This document shows, one piece after another, positions 1 to 5,655 of a stretch of DNA of 7,578 nucleotides. The translations under genes and the position numbers were made by a program. Numbering within the stretch: position 1 is the first letter of the stretch; the number at the start of each line of letters is the position of its first letter. Below the pieces are notes generated by a model, which saw only the letters and a list, made by a program, of their open reading frames with translations, searched no databases and was not told the origin of the DNA. Origin of the DNA: Clostridia bacterium (lineage in GTDB: Bacteria > Bacillota_E > SLMV01 > PUMD01); contig SKXF01000421.1 of the NCBI GenBank assembly GCA_007128555.1, positions 1 to 7,578 of the forward strand, given 5' to 3'.

Positions 1-1412
1 AACGCGTCCAGGGCCGTGTCGATCTCCGCCGGGGTGTTGAAAAAATGAGGCGCAAGCCTGACAACCTGGCCCCGCGCCGAGGTCACGATGCTGCGGCTCT
101 TCAACTGCATCTCCACGCTGTGAGAATCCCCTGGGACCTCTATGGAGGTCGTAGAACCCTTCTTGCTCACCTGGAGCGGACTCACGACCTTCAATCCTCG
201 CCGCAGGGCTCCCCGCAGGCAGTAGGCAGACAGGTAATCTATGTGATCCCCGATCCGTTCCAGGCCCACTTCGCGGAGCAGCTGCATCCCCGCCCGGGCA
301 GCAAAGGCCGCTATGACGGGAGGCGTCCCGCTTTCCAGTCGGCGGGCCGTCCTGGCGTAGTTCAGGTCCTTCACGTCGAAGGCAAAGGGATCCTCCTGGC
401 CAAACCATCCGGTCTCTGCAGGATGAAGCTGGGGCACCACGTCCGGATTCAAATAGACAAAGGCGATCCCCGGTACTCCCAGCAGGTACTTGAGGTTGCC
501 CGTGGTCAGGATATCGATATCTGATGCCTGCACATCAATCGTGCAGGATCCGGCACTCTGGTAAGCATCCACCAACAGGTAAGCCCCGTGGCTGTGAACG
601 ACATCGGCAACAGCCTTCAGATCCTGCTTGTATCCCGTCTGGTAATACACGTGGGTCACGGAAGTCAAGAATGTCCGGTCATCCAGCAGCGCATCGTAGT
701 CCTCCAGGCGGAGCTGACCATCGTTCAGCGGAACAAAACCCACCTCTGCTCCGTACTTTTTGTGCGCAAGCCACACGTGACCCACCGTGGGAAACTCTGC
801 CTCGGTCAACAGCACCCGGTTGCGCTCGCCCGAGAAATCGATGCCGCTGGCCACGCTCGATATGGCCTCAGACACCGAGCTTACCACGGCAATGTCGTCG
901 GGGTTTGCGTTGATAATGCGGGCAAACTCCGTCTTTGCGTTGTTGACCTCCTCCACCCAGTAATCCCAGTCCATGCCCGAACTGCGCCAGTTCTCCATGT
1001 AAACTTCCAGCGCATCGCGGACCTCTTTTGACTGGGCACCCTGGGAACAGTTGGCGAGGTGGATCGTGCCCTGAAGTCCCGGGAACCTGGCCCGGTGACG
1101 GGTCATCTCTTCATCCGTAAAGGGCGACCGCTCGACGGTGGCCTCAACCCCATCCCCCTGCCCAACGGCGGAGGAACGGGATCCCAGGCGGATCAGCCGA
1201 CGGCCGCCCGTGGGAGCATGCCCAGGAGCCTGCACGGAATCGTTGCTCCTGTCCTGATCCCGCACCGGCACACCGATGATGATTCTCACGCCCAGCCGAT
1301 CCGCGGTCTCACGGGCCACATCGGTAACAACGGCTTCATCGGTGACGTGCAGCTCGGTCCTGCCTGCATCAGCGACGCGGTGAACATCCTCAGGCGTTAT
1401 GAACTCCCGCAT
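1..1412 (-). CDS. Class V PLP-dependent aminotransferase with EutQ/EutT-like N-terminal segment (C-terminus off window)
   Basis: The frame is open from ATG 1412 to the window edge, giving 470 complete residues. GGAGG at 1420-1424, 7 bases before the ATG, fixes the start. Residues 1-48 (MREFITPEDVHRVADAG, then a TDEAVVTDVARE stretch and LGVRIII) resemble the N-termini of EutQ and EutT as I remember them: an ITxxDV start, then 'TPxARE' and a hydrophobic strand. Residues about 50-100 form a charged, G/P/S-rich linker. The fold-type I aminotransferase class V domain follows. Asp282 in LLVDAYQSAG should contact the pyridine nitrogen, and Lys308 in TTGNLKYLLG should bind PLP. The ending VRLAPHFFNTPAEID is typical of the C-terminus, so only a few residues are probably missing. 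The family includes cysteine desulfurases, isopenicillin N epimerase-like enzymes and true transaminases; the substrate cannot be read. Only 27 bases separate it from the BMC gene, so the two are probably one operon. Confidence 0.9.
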   Translation of the reverse strand, partial: MREFITPEDVHRVADAGRTELHVTDEAVVTDVARETADRLGVRIIIGVPVRDQDRSNDSVQAPGHAPTGGRRLIRLGSRSSAVGQGDGVEATVERSPFTDEEMTRHRARFPGLQGTIHLANCSQGAQSKEVRDALEVYMENWRSSGMDWDYWVEEVNNAKTEFARIINANPDDIAVVSSVSEAISSVASGIDFSGERNRVLLTEAEFPTVGHVWLAHKKYGAEVGFVPLNDGQLRLEDYDALLDDRTFLTSVTHVYYQTGYKQDLKAVADVVHSHGAYLLVDAYQSAGSCTIDVQASDIDILTTGNLKYLLGVPGIAFVYLNPDVVPQLHPAETGWFGQEDPFAFDVKDLNYARTARRLESGTPPVIAAFAARAGMQLLREVGLERIGDHIDYLSAYCLRGALRRGLKVVSPLQVSKKGSTTSIEVPGDSHSVEMQLKSRSIVTSARGQVVRLAPHFFNTPAEIDTALDA

Positions 1413-1439: not shown

Positions 1440-1649
1440 TCAGACGCTGCTACTCGCATATGCACCGACGATGAGAACGAGGCAGCTCGCCAGGTCTTCA
1501 TGGGGACGGGGTATCACGTTAACGGAGACAGTCTCACCGATCCTCCTGGCCGCCGACGCTCCGGCGTCCACGGCCGCCATGACCATGGCATCGGCTGCCT
1601 CCGCGGCTGCCATCAGTCCCCGGGCCTCAATAAGTCCCAATGATGTCAC
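1440..1649 (-). CDS. BMC-domain microcompartment shell protein with internal deletion
   Basis: The 69-residue frame matches both ends of the hexameric BMC shell family. [20 protein letters not shown] matches the first strand and helix (PduA-like 'ALGMVETKGL...IEAADAM'), and [13 protein letters not shown] plus [13 protein letters not shown] matches the second helix and last strand. Between them, about 29 residues are absent: the part that normally holds the central strands, the pore loop (GSG) and the RGDV turn. The join is at residues 23-27 (VMAAV). In normal BMC proteins a similar '(M)V-K-x-A' segment occurs on both sides of the missing part, so an in-frame loss between short repeats is plausible. 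I chose GTG 1649 because AAAGGG at 1658-1663 lies 8 bases upstream and it gives the usual short N-terminus. An in-frame TTG at 1685 has no ribosome site. A pore-less product cannot be a normal hexamer tile; it may be a pseudogene, an odd variant or an assembly collapse. Confidence 0.75.
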
Positions 1650-2852: not shown

Positions 2853-3506
2853 TCAATAGACCACCACGTCGCTCCTGCTCTGCTCAACGCGAGAAAAGTT
2901 GGGACATCGCTGAGTTCCAGGGACTCGCCGATCTGACGCAGAGGACGTCACATCGGATGAACGGCCCTCCTCTTTCCCAATTCGATCCCTGCCTCATTAT
3001 CCTCGCAGATGACCAGCGCGCAGTCCAGCCCCAGCCCTTTCGCCCCATCCGCCTCACAAAGGGGATCGCCCTCCCACGCGCAGATCCACGCGTAGGGGGG
3101 CAGGCTGCCCGTCGATGCGGCCACCCGTTCGCCCTCCCGTCCGCCGGTGAGGTCCAACGAGCAGGTGCTTCACATGGCCAGGAGCATGTTCCAGCCTCTC
3201 CCGGGCTCTGGTGCCACGATGATCATCTGCACGGAGTCGGCTCTCCCGTGACGGTCATTCTCTGCCGTCGCCGATCAGTCCCTGACATCTACGAACACGG
3301 AAACCAGTCCGTAGGCACTGACCAGACCCGGGTCATAGGAATCTGCACCCTCTGCCATAATGTCACAAGCAGACTGGAGCAATGCCGACTCAGTTCGTAG
3401 CCGTGAACACGAGATGTGAGCTTTCGGAGCGGACCTGCAGGGCTACGTGCAACATGATGAGGGGTGGGTCGTTCGTAACGATCAAGATACCCGCATTGGT
3501 GCCCAT
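2853..3506 (-). pseudogene. Decayed gene of unknown function (in-frame TGA stops plus frameshifts)
   Basis: A chain of protein-like pieces runs down the minus strand. ATG 3506 (MGTNAGILIVTNDPPLIM...) is open to a stop at 3390-3392. After a one-base shift, a frame carrying ESALLQSACDIMAEGADSYD and GLVSVFVDVRD runs to TGA 3275-3277. The same frame resumes (ADSVQMIIVAPEPGRGWNML) to TGA 3170-3172, resumes (LPPYAWICAWEGDPLCEADG, LDCALVICEDNEAGIELG) to TGA 2948-2950, and resumes again (RQIGESLELSDVPTFLALSR). A tandem GAGCA duplication at 2876-2885 breaks the end; with one copy removed it reads SDVVVY and stops at 2853. The intact ancestor would be about 215 residues. Codons in these pieces are G-first and G+C-rich at the third position, like real genes. 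I do not recognise the family. Sequencing error is an alternative to decay, but it would need several events. Confidence 0.5.
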
Positions 3507-3766
3507 CAAACGCACCCTCTTCCCCTGCCAACTGCCTGAGTGCTGCGGGGTGCCTCGACCACGGACACCTGTGACCAGGCCAAAGCAACTTGCACGGAAG
3601 ATCCCTGGAGAATGGGTACGGGCGTGGGTTGAGGGAGGTCCAGGAAGGCTGGTGCGACCGATCCTCGAGAGAGATATTCCACCGTCGACCCTCCTCGAGA
3701 TGGCGAGCCGACGGCGGACTCTAGCCCGGGGAACAACTCGGCGCCGCTCACTTCACGTGAGGGCAC
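3506..3766 (-). CDS. Possible small ORF or upstream part of the decayed gene
   Basis: The 86-residue frame (GTG 3766, starting VPSREVSGAELFPG) ends in a TGATG overlap with the ATG of the decayed gene at 3506, an arrangement typical of coupled operon genes. One part (VAPAFLDLPQPTPVPILQGS, then VQVALAWSQVSVVEAP) looks protein-like; the rest is S/G/R-rich. No ribosome site precedes the GTG, and no family is recognised. It may be a genuine short gene, a further fragment of the decayed gene, or chance. It lies 35 bases downstream of the coiled-coil gene's stop. Confidence 0.25.
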   Translation of the reverse strand: MPSREVSGAELFPGLESAVGSPSRGGSTVEYLSRGSVAPAFLDLPQPTPVPILQGSSVQVALAWSQVSVVEAPRSTQAVGRGRGCV

Positions 3767-3801
3767 TGCCTTTTCTGCTCCCGGGCCTCGTTTTTACCTG
3801 G

Positions 3802-4464: not shown

Positions 4465-5655
4465 TCAGCCGTCGATGTACCAGAGCTCCGTCTGCCATGT
4501 GTGCAGCCTCTCCGCGCCGTCAGAGCAAATCCGGACATTCTCCTCGGTGATGAAGCTCAATTCACCCTCCAGGATGGTGGGCTCAAGGGTGTACAGTTCC
4601 CCCTCCTGCAATAGCCCGGTGCTCTCGAGGTCCTCCCCCTCGCGAAGGGGACGGAGCGAGGTGCCCCCATCGTGAACCATTTGACCTATCTGGTGTCCCA
4701 CCGAATGCTTTATGCTGGGATAACCCCGGTCAATGAGATACTGCCGGGCCACGCGATCAACCTCCACCCCCGGCACACCAGGCTTCATGATGTCAAAGGC
4801 CTCGGAGATGGCCCCACGGATCGCGGCAAAGGCCTCGAGTATCGTATCTGGAGCGCGTTCCTCCCCGGGCCGCAGATGATAGAACGTGCGAGCGATGTCG
4901 GAATGATAACCCCTGTAGCCGAGGCCGAAGTCAATGACCATGAGATCCCCCGGGGCCAGGGCGGCATCGGTGGGCTTGCGGTGAGACATTCCCGCCTTGG
5001 GCAGAAGGACCAGGGGGCCCTCCTGGGGCATGACACCGACGGGAGCCCTCCGGTCTATGGCCTGGCGAAACAGGTCCTGGATCTGGATCTCCGTCATCCC
5101 AGCTGCCAGCTGACCCCAGGTTTCCTGGTAGACCTCTAAATTATGGTCAATGGCTCCCTGGACCCGCTGCAGCTCGGCCTCGGATTTGACGGCCCGAAGC
5201 TGGGTCAGGACCGGTTGACTGGAAAGGGCTCTCGCTTCCAACTCCTCGACGCCCAGCAGTCGCCCCAGCCACAGGTAGGTACCGTGACTGAGACCGTCGC
5301 AAAGGTTATCCATCTCGGAGAAATTCAGCAGGAATTTTCTGGGGTTCCATTCCCTGTAAAGGTCGGCAAACATGGCATCCATCCCTTTCCCGGGGATGGA
5401 GATCACCTCGTCGAAGATACCAAGGGACTCCACGTGCCCCCTGTCAGGCCATCCCGTCAACGCCACGGAACGTCCCTCCGTGTCAAAGGCAAAGACGCTC
5501 CGACCTGACGTTGCACCACCCACGAGCAGGGGCAGCGAGGGGTCGCGGCCCTCGATATCAATGATGAACCACGCGTCTGCCCCAAACTCCTTCATCATTG
5601 CTCTCATCTGCTCCAGCTTCTGCTCAACGATCTCAGCATCCATGTACTTGAACAT
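4465..5655 (-). CDS. M24-family metallopeptidase (Xaa-Pro aminopeptidase/dipeptidase type)
   Basis: The 396-residue protein has the usual two-domain build: a creatinase-like N-terminal domain (to about residue 150) and a C-terminal pita-bread domain. All five metal ligands are visible: Asp242 in VIDFGLGY, Asp253 in HSDIARTF, His321 in SVGHQIG, Glu358 in YTLEPTI and Glu371 in TEENVRI. His225 (GMSHRKP) matches the conserved substrate-contact histidine. Such enzymes cleave Xaa-Pro bonds from peptides or dipeptides in the cytosol; creatinase-type relatives with other C-N substrates share the fold, so the exact substrate is open. There is no signal peptide. ATG 5655 is supported by AAAGGGG at 5663-5669, 7 bases upstream. 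It follows the M20 peptidase on the same strand, and the pair suggests uptake and breakdown of short peptides or N-acyl amino acids. Confidence 0.92.
   Translation of the reverse strand: MFKYMDAEIVEQKLEQMRAMMKEFGADAWFIIDIEGRDPSLPLLVGGATSGRSVFAFDTEGRSVALTGWPDRGHVESLGIFDEVISIPGKGMDAMFADLYREWNPRKFLLNFSEMDNLCDGLSHGTYLWLGRLLGVEELEARALSSQPVLTQLRAVKSEAELQRVQGAIDHNLEVYQETWGQLAAGMTEIQIQDLFRQAIDRRAPVGVMPQEGPLVLLPKAGMSHRKPTDAALAPGDLMVIDFGLGYRGYHSDIARTFYHLRPGEERAPDTILEAFAAIRGAISEAFDIMKPGVPGVEVDRVARQYLIDRGYPSIKHSVGHQIGQMVHDGGTSLRPLREGEDLESTGLLQEGELYTLEPTILEGELSFITEENVRICSDGAERLHTWQTELWYIDG

Follow-up and report, generated by a model that had tools for sequence, protein, structure and literature searches.

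Family 2A encapsulins hold a cysteine desulfurase as cargo in an encapsulin shell. For most types of bacterial microcompartments (BMCs), it is still an open question how cargo is brought to the shell, and the encapsulation peptides are described in the part of Sutter 2021 available to us (PMC8217296) as amphipathic helices of about 15-20 residues. EutQ binds EutM according to the accessible text of an earlier paper (PMC4827028). In the available sections of Yang et al. 2025 (PMC12487888), the H1/H2 helices of Salmonella EutQ (residues 9-41) bind the shell, with the EutM/EutL interface as the proposed site, residues 62-99 (H3/H4) bind cargo peptides, and residues 1-99 suffice to take sfGFP to the BMC. 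The same sections report that the NMR peaks of EutQ residues 2-62 were unchanged when cargo peptide was added (PMC12487888). BMC loci defined by shell genes and no AldDH are grouped as BUF. The accessible text of neither Axen 2014 (PMC4207490) nor Sutter 2021 (PMC8217296) names the enzymes of BUF3, and that of the latter gives no gene content or function for it.

Most of the coding sequence in the window, that is, the whole 7,578-nucleotide stretch of DNA analysed here, lay on the minus strand, and its genes are described from right to left. The minus-strand genes began with an M20 peptidase gene (7350-5920) and an M24 peptidase-family gene (4465..5655, assigned with Pfam), the latter 63% identical to a gene that adjoins a locus of this kind in L001; we are unsure whether it belongs to the BMC system. 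A small coiled-coil-like ORF (4125-3802) and a CAAX protease gene (2887-1985) lay on the same strand. The interval 2890-3800 held short ORFs only, three of them without a Pfam match, and is perhaps a decayed gene region. Directly upstream of the enzyme, where the initial annotation had placed a BMC gene, we did find a BMC-H shell protein ORF (1440..1649, minus strand; the listed ORF reaches 1685 and the start at 1649 is a guess), but it was not intact: PF00936 matched the 1440-1685 ORF in two pieces only, and comparison with eight relatives showed that 29 central residues were gone from the middle of the domain, in frame. This may be a real break in the gene, or an artefact of an assembly in which two similar stretches were merged into one. 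The window ended with the gene of a class V PLP-dependent enzyme bearing an N-terminal tag (3..1412, minus strand), whose 3' end was cut by the window edge.

The minus-strand ORF of this enzyme (3-1430) was open at the edge, its stop lying outside, and the homologues extended about 6-16 residues further. The start was assigned to the ATG at 1412, where the 23 homologues compared align; an alternative GTG at 1430 would add six residues. The protein had been called a complete class V aminotransferase: the class V fold was recovered (Pfam Aminotran_5, PF00266, E 1.6e-40, with weaker PLP families also matching), but the enzyme is truncated by the window edge. Its catalytic domain (3..1121, minus strand), of kynureninase/SufS-like fold, was nearest to kynureninase (PDB 1qz9, E 4.9e-30) and SufS-type enzymes, with 20-24% identity to PDB structures among the matches listed. 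Because these were the nearest enzymes and no NCBIfam model matched at its cut-off, "aminotransferase" is a fold name only, the activity being unproven. A protein search returned 786 relatives at E 0.001, and the PLP lysine was invariant in the GNLKYL motif (codon 489-491) in the full-length alignment. In cysteine desulfurases the catalytic cysteine is located in a C-terminal loop. The PLP lysine expected of a cysteine desulfurase was present, but no invariant or nearly invariant cysteine was found after residue 128 in 24 rows, making desulfurase chemistry unlikely for the family. The cargo of family 2A encapsulins (NF041166) is similar in being a class V PLP enzyme housed within a protein shell; however, its shell is unrelated, the window enzyme scored 74.8 against a cut-off of 800, and the family of the window enzyme has no conserved cysteine in its C-terminal half.

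The N-terminal extension, first described as a block of about 48 residues and a low-complexity linker of about 50, was divided here into a block of 46 residues (residues 1-46; 1275..1412, minus strand), a low-complexity linker of approximately residues 47-97 (1122..1274, minus strand) and the catalytic domain thereafter. The whole block was present in 104 of 120 homologues among the matches listed, of 786, with the N-termini judged by eye, and three of its positions (T, T and A) were invariant in 24 full-length rows. AlphaFold predicted the block alone with a mean pLDDT of 91 and a pTM of 0.70, with helices at residues 7-15 and 31-40 and short strands. In the full-length model the block stayed at about 95 pLDDT and residues 57-91 of the linker region (the model numbering being 6 higher) fell below 50, the linker thus being predicted as disordered in its middle. 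In these models the block looks like a tethered folded mini-domain and not a bare helix. Its recurrence among the homologues and the confidence of the model make it more than a chance feature. It does not resemble a classical encapsulation peptide, being predicted as a two-helix mini-domain with short strands.

A profile built from 33 blocks of the tagged PLP enzyme family alone, with no Eut sequence (A2), was compared with 610 ORFs of other loci. It matched E. coli EutQ at 7.3e-8, in an alignment covering EutQ residues 2-46, clostridial EutQ at 9.7e-11 and 8.6e-7, and the C-termini of five flavoprotein-like proteins in other BMC loci at 3.7e-8 to 3e-4, the best score in three shuffled control sets being 0.035. 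When the tag region alone was used for the search, the query itself was the sole match. A similarity to both EutQ and EutT had been proposed at the outset. The match to EutQ was obtained with A2, but EutT (0.22 in E. coli and 0.25 in L113 with A2) was reached only with a broader profile of 75 rows, which adds EutQ, amidohydrolase and C-terminal blocks and nothing recognised as EutT; it scored 1.3e-5 for E. coli, 9.8e-7 for L113 and 0.0031 for L114, with 0.017 as the best of 20 shuffled sets. Both clostridial EutT proteins (L113 and L114) carry PF01923.

The window protein and EutQ have in common a homologous block of about 46 residues, a flexible stretch next to it and a link with BMCs. The sequence of the block matches the shell-binding half of EutQ only: EutQ continues with the H3/H4 cargo-binding helices and a cupin domain, whereas in the window protein the PLP enzyme follows the linker, and the Pfam scan, which gave class V aminotransferase and weaker PLP families, detected no cupin PF06249. 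By homology with EutQ, we infer that this EutQ H1/H2-like block is a putative tag that may dock the PLP enzyme on the shell.

Scanning the genome collection with alignment A1 yielded 79 loci, three of which, L013 and L066 (N-terminus of the enzyme cut off) and L040 (frame broken), were left out of the tag and BMC counts. A BMC-H gene lay beside the enzyme in 33 of 35 tagged loci versus none of 41 untagged ones, some of the untagged stretches being short (Fisher p 1.7e-19, uncorrected for kinship). These counts, like the similarity of the block to EutQ, support the initial interpretation of the block. The distance from BMC-H to the tagged enzyme was 15-689 bases in 32 loci and 33 bases in L002. 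The tagged loci without BMC-H, L033 and L072, were both at contig ends; in L072, with 302 bases available upstream, there was no BMC gene within 7.3 kb downstream of the tagged enzyme. A protein with a Cucumopine_C domain was seen near this enzyme without visible BMC genes (L072:2732-3310). When the presence of the tag was mapped on a tree of 74 catalytic domains, 7 changes were required, one of them owed only to L013 with its cut-off N-terminus, versus about 25 after shuffling (0 of 500 as low); since the tag labels cluster on the tree, the Fisher test is inflated by relatedness. L030 and the pair L038/L039 were nested among tagged relatives and had neither tag nor BMC genes in the stretch examined. 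When 38 genomes with untagged enzymes were searched, 32 had no BMC match and six, including that of L039, had BMC matches away from the enzyme.

In 391 Clostridia genomes, the A2 profile detected 47 places in 39 genomes (E 0.01). Three looked like the tagged PLP enzyme family (E 3e-19 or lower; frames of 479-494 residues), and BMC-domain ORFs were present in the fetched stretch at 40 of the remaining 44; the four places without them (L185, L208, L211 and L213) look like chance matches. Among the 40 BMC-linked places the block was N-terminal in 7 (EutQ-like or small proteins) and C-terminal in 32, with no ORF called in 1. Six C-terminal carriers were scanned, three of which passed the PF02441 flavoprotein cut-off, two fell below it and one matched PF00291; two further ones (L113 and L114) gave no Pfam match. 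Three carriers tested matched TIGR02536 at 20.7-41.1 bits, far under the cut-off of 152.6, and a EutQ N-terminus matched the end of the TIGR02536 model at 1.4e-6. The presence of the block on varied BMC-linked proteins, at the N- or the C-terminus, suggests from sequence that it may be a portable BMC domain; our literature searches found no paper proposing this.

In the usual locus, BMC-H and the enzyme were accompanied by BMC-P, BMC-T and an amidohydrolase resembling dihydropyrimidinase; a 2-oxoacid:ferredoxin oxidoreductase and an ADP-forming acyl-CoA ligase were frequent additions. Of 38 tagged-type stretches, many of which are cut by contig ends, 19 had POR-alpha and 16 had ACS-alpha, and the untagged stretches searched had neither; an NhaC-type transporter adjoined five untagged actinobacterial copies of the enzyme. 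In Maledivibacter halophilus (L016), the locus contained a Crp-type regulator, BMC-H, the enzyme, BMC-P, BMC-H and a double BMC-T (best model CcmP, 237 bits, cut-off 340), as well as an amidohydrolase of the dihydropyrimidinase family (278 bits, cut-off 393), a 2-oxoacid:ferredoxin oxidoreductase with a ferredoxin-type subunit, a two-part ADP-forming acyl-CoA ligase and an NhaC-type transporter. Upstream lay a permease, a CoA transferase, an acyl-CoA dehydrogenase, two ETF subunits and a sigma-54 activator. No aldehyde dehydrogenase domain (PF00171) was detected in the 20 of 21 listed ORFs of at least 80 residues that were scanned, in agreement with the definition of a BUF; the flanking genes of the window itself lie beyond its edge. 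The M. halophilus genome has six BMC regions. The sixth, L016, is by elimination the BUF3 of Sutter 2021 (PMC8217296), because the other five are EUT twice (EutB), PDU (PF02286), GRM (glycyl radical) and the xanthine type (MoCoBD, UbiD, FTCD); with BUF3, as far as the available text describes it, L016 shares BMC-H, BMC-P, a double-domain BMC-T and no AldDH among the genes scanned. The locus also resembles the xanthine BMC (BUF1, Xau), to judge from the accessible part of PMC6620236, in being without the usual metabolosome core and in having amidohydrolases for nitrogen compounds, but the xanthine dehydrogenase, UbiD and formiminotransferase set of that type forms a separate M. halophilus locus (L110).

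The amidohydrolase family had 28 members in the surveyed loci; 30 of the 38 tagged-type stretches contained a relative, against a single untagged one. The residues HxH, K, H, H and D, which we take to be the metal ligands of amidohydrolases, were present at metal-ligand spacing in all 25 amidohydrolases longer than 440 residues. Judged by eye, the N-terminus of the amidohydrolase varied with lineage. It too carried the EutQ-like block in six loci (L001, L002, L024, L059, L066 and L073); L016 was among those with a short extension resembling a helix, and L021 among those with repeated F-x-P-x-W/Y letters. The amidohydrolases of L034 and L035 had no N-terminal extension. The F-x-P-x-W/Y letters (L021:12904-14415, L017:12669-14276 and L028:12703-14184) are perhaps another targeting motif, and similar letters were seen in the linkers of P0033, P0060, P0105 and P0113. 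In a BMC locus, L013:6094-7539 encoded a second class V PLP domain, untagged and joined to the beginning of an amidohydrolase that the contig end truncates, a fusion that links the two activities. An aldehyde:ferredoxin oxidoreductase was confirmed in L059 and clustered with ORFs in L010, L022, L027 and L033, so an aldehyde is a possible product at those loci.

The PLP enzyme is probably enclosed in a microcompartment of a little-studied type, and we consider it likely on the whole that it is a BUF3 cargo reaching the shell by a EutQ-like docking tag, the metabolic part being the least certain. The computed support comes from tag homology, predicted fold, linkage with BMC genes and gene content, and from it we infer shell binding, encapsulation, and the chemistry and substrate of the enzyme. 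The block homologous to EutQ H1/H2 would dock on the shell's inner face and hold the enzyme there by the disordered tether. Inside, the PLP enzyme would work with the cyclic amidohydrolase as a second cargo, a member of the dihydropyrimidinase/hydantoinase family. The most likely course is that the ring of a cyclic ureide or amide is opened to give an amino acid, which is converted to a 2-oxo acid or, in some lineages, to an aldehyde. This product would feed the 2-oxoacid:ferredoxin oxidoreductase and the ADP-forming acyl-CoA ligase, which would yield reduced ferredoxin and ATP. The shortened BMC-H of the window, the tagged loci L072 and L033 without BMC genes, the unextended amidohydrolases of L034 and L035, and the absence of POR and ACS from about half of the tagged-type stretches count against this reading, as do the tag-only search that recovered just its query and a window too short to show an amidohydrolase, BMC-P or BMC-T of its own.

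Metabolosome encapsulation peptides drive condensation, according to the accessible text of PMC12339742, and the block occurs on two different enzymes in six loci, as would be expected of a cargo-cargo or self-association module gathering enzymes into a condensate without docking on the shell. However, the homology is to EutQ residues 1-46, in the region whose NMR peaks (residues 2-62) were unmoved by cargo peptide in the available sections of PMC12487888, and the partner amidohydrolase bears a different extension in other loci, so we find a condensate improbable. The clustering of the tag labels on the tree would also agree with an ordinary regulatory or oligomerisation domain linked to BMCs by common descent only, but L030 and L038/L039, amid tagged relatives, showed neither tag nor BMC genes in the stretch examined, and the block occurred at either end of unrelated BMC-linked proteins; this origin of the association is very improbable.

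Decay of the locus in the genome of the window, with a broken BMC-H, a relic tagged enzyme and no compartment, is possible rather than probable, and would be compatible with docking in the rest of the family. The BMC-H ORF short by 29 residues and the close relative L001, with one BMC-H only in the stretch examined, speak for it, but the ORF of the enzyme is open with its active-site motif kept, and the BMC-H loss is in frame and may come from assembly collapse.

A wider reading, for and against which we see the case as evenly balanced, is that many microcompartment types share the block as a portable domain for shell docking. It would stand at the N-terminus of EutQ, EutT, the class V enzyme and the amidohydrolase, and at the C-terminus of flavoprotein-like proteins (PDU, GRM, EUT and BUF1) and once of a TrpB-like enzyme. 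Such a domain would add a second general means of targeting to the amphipathic peptides, and BUF3 would lack aldehyde dehydrogenase and have a PLP enzyme and a cyclic amidohydrolase as its basis. A homologue of the shell-binding half of EutQ placed directly on enzymes would provide a testable docking rule across BMC types and a possible handle to load enzymes into shells, and the PLP enzyme and amidohydrolase pair would be pointed to as the core chemistry of BUF3, an unexplained organelle.

Flavoprotein-like proteins with a C-terminal block were observed in PDU, GRM, BUF1 and other BMC loci (L110:7892-8674, L111:9425-10183, L112:2985-3707 and L205:7939-8784). The PF00291 carrier (L199:7958-9652) was a TrpB-like PLP enzyme that bears the block C-terminally and lies about 7 kb from BMC genes. 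Finally, a 103-residue protein of an EUT locus (L114:16895-17206), with no NCBIfam match, had a EutQ-like block at its start.
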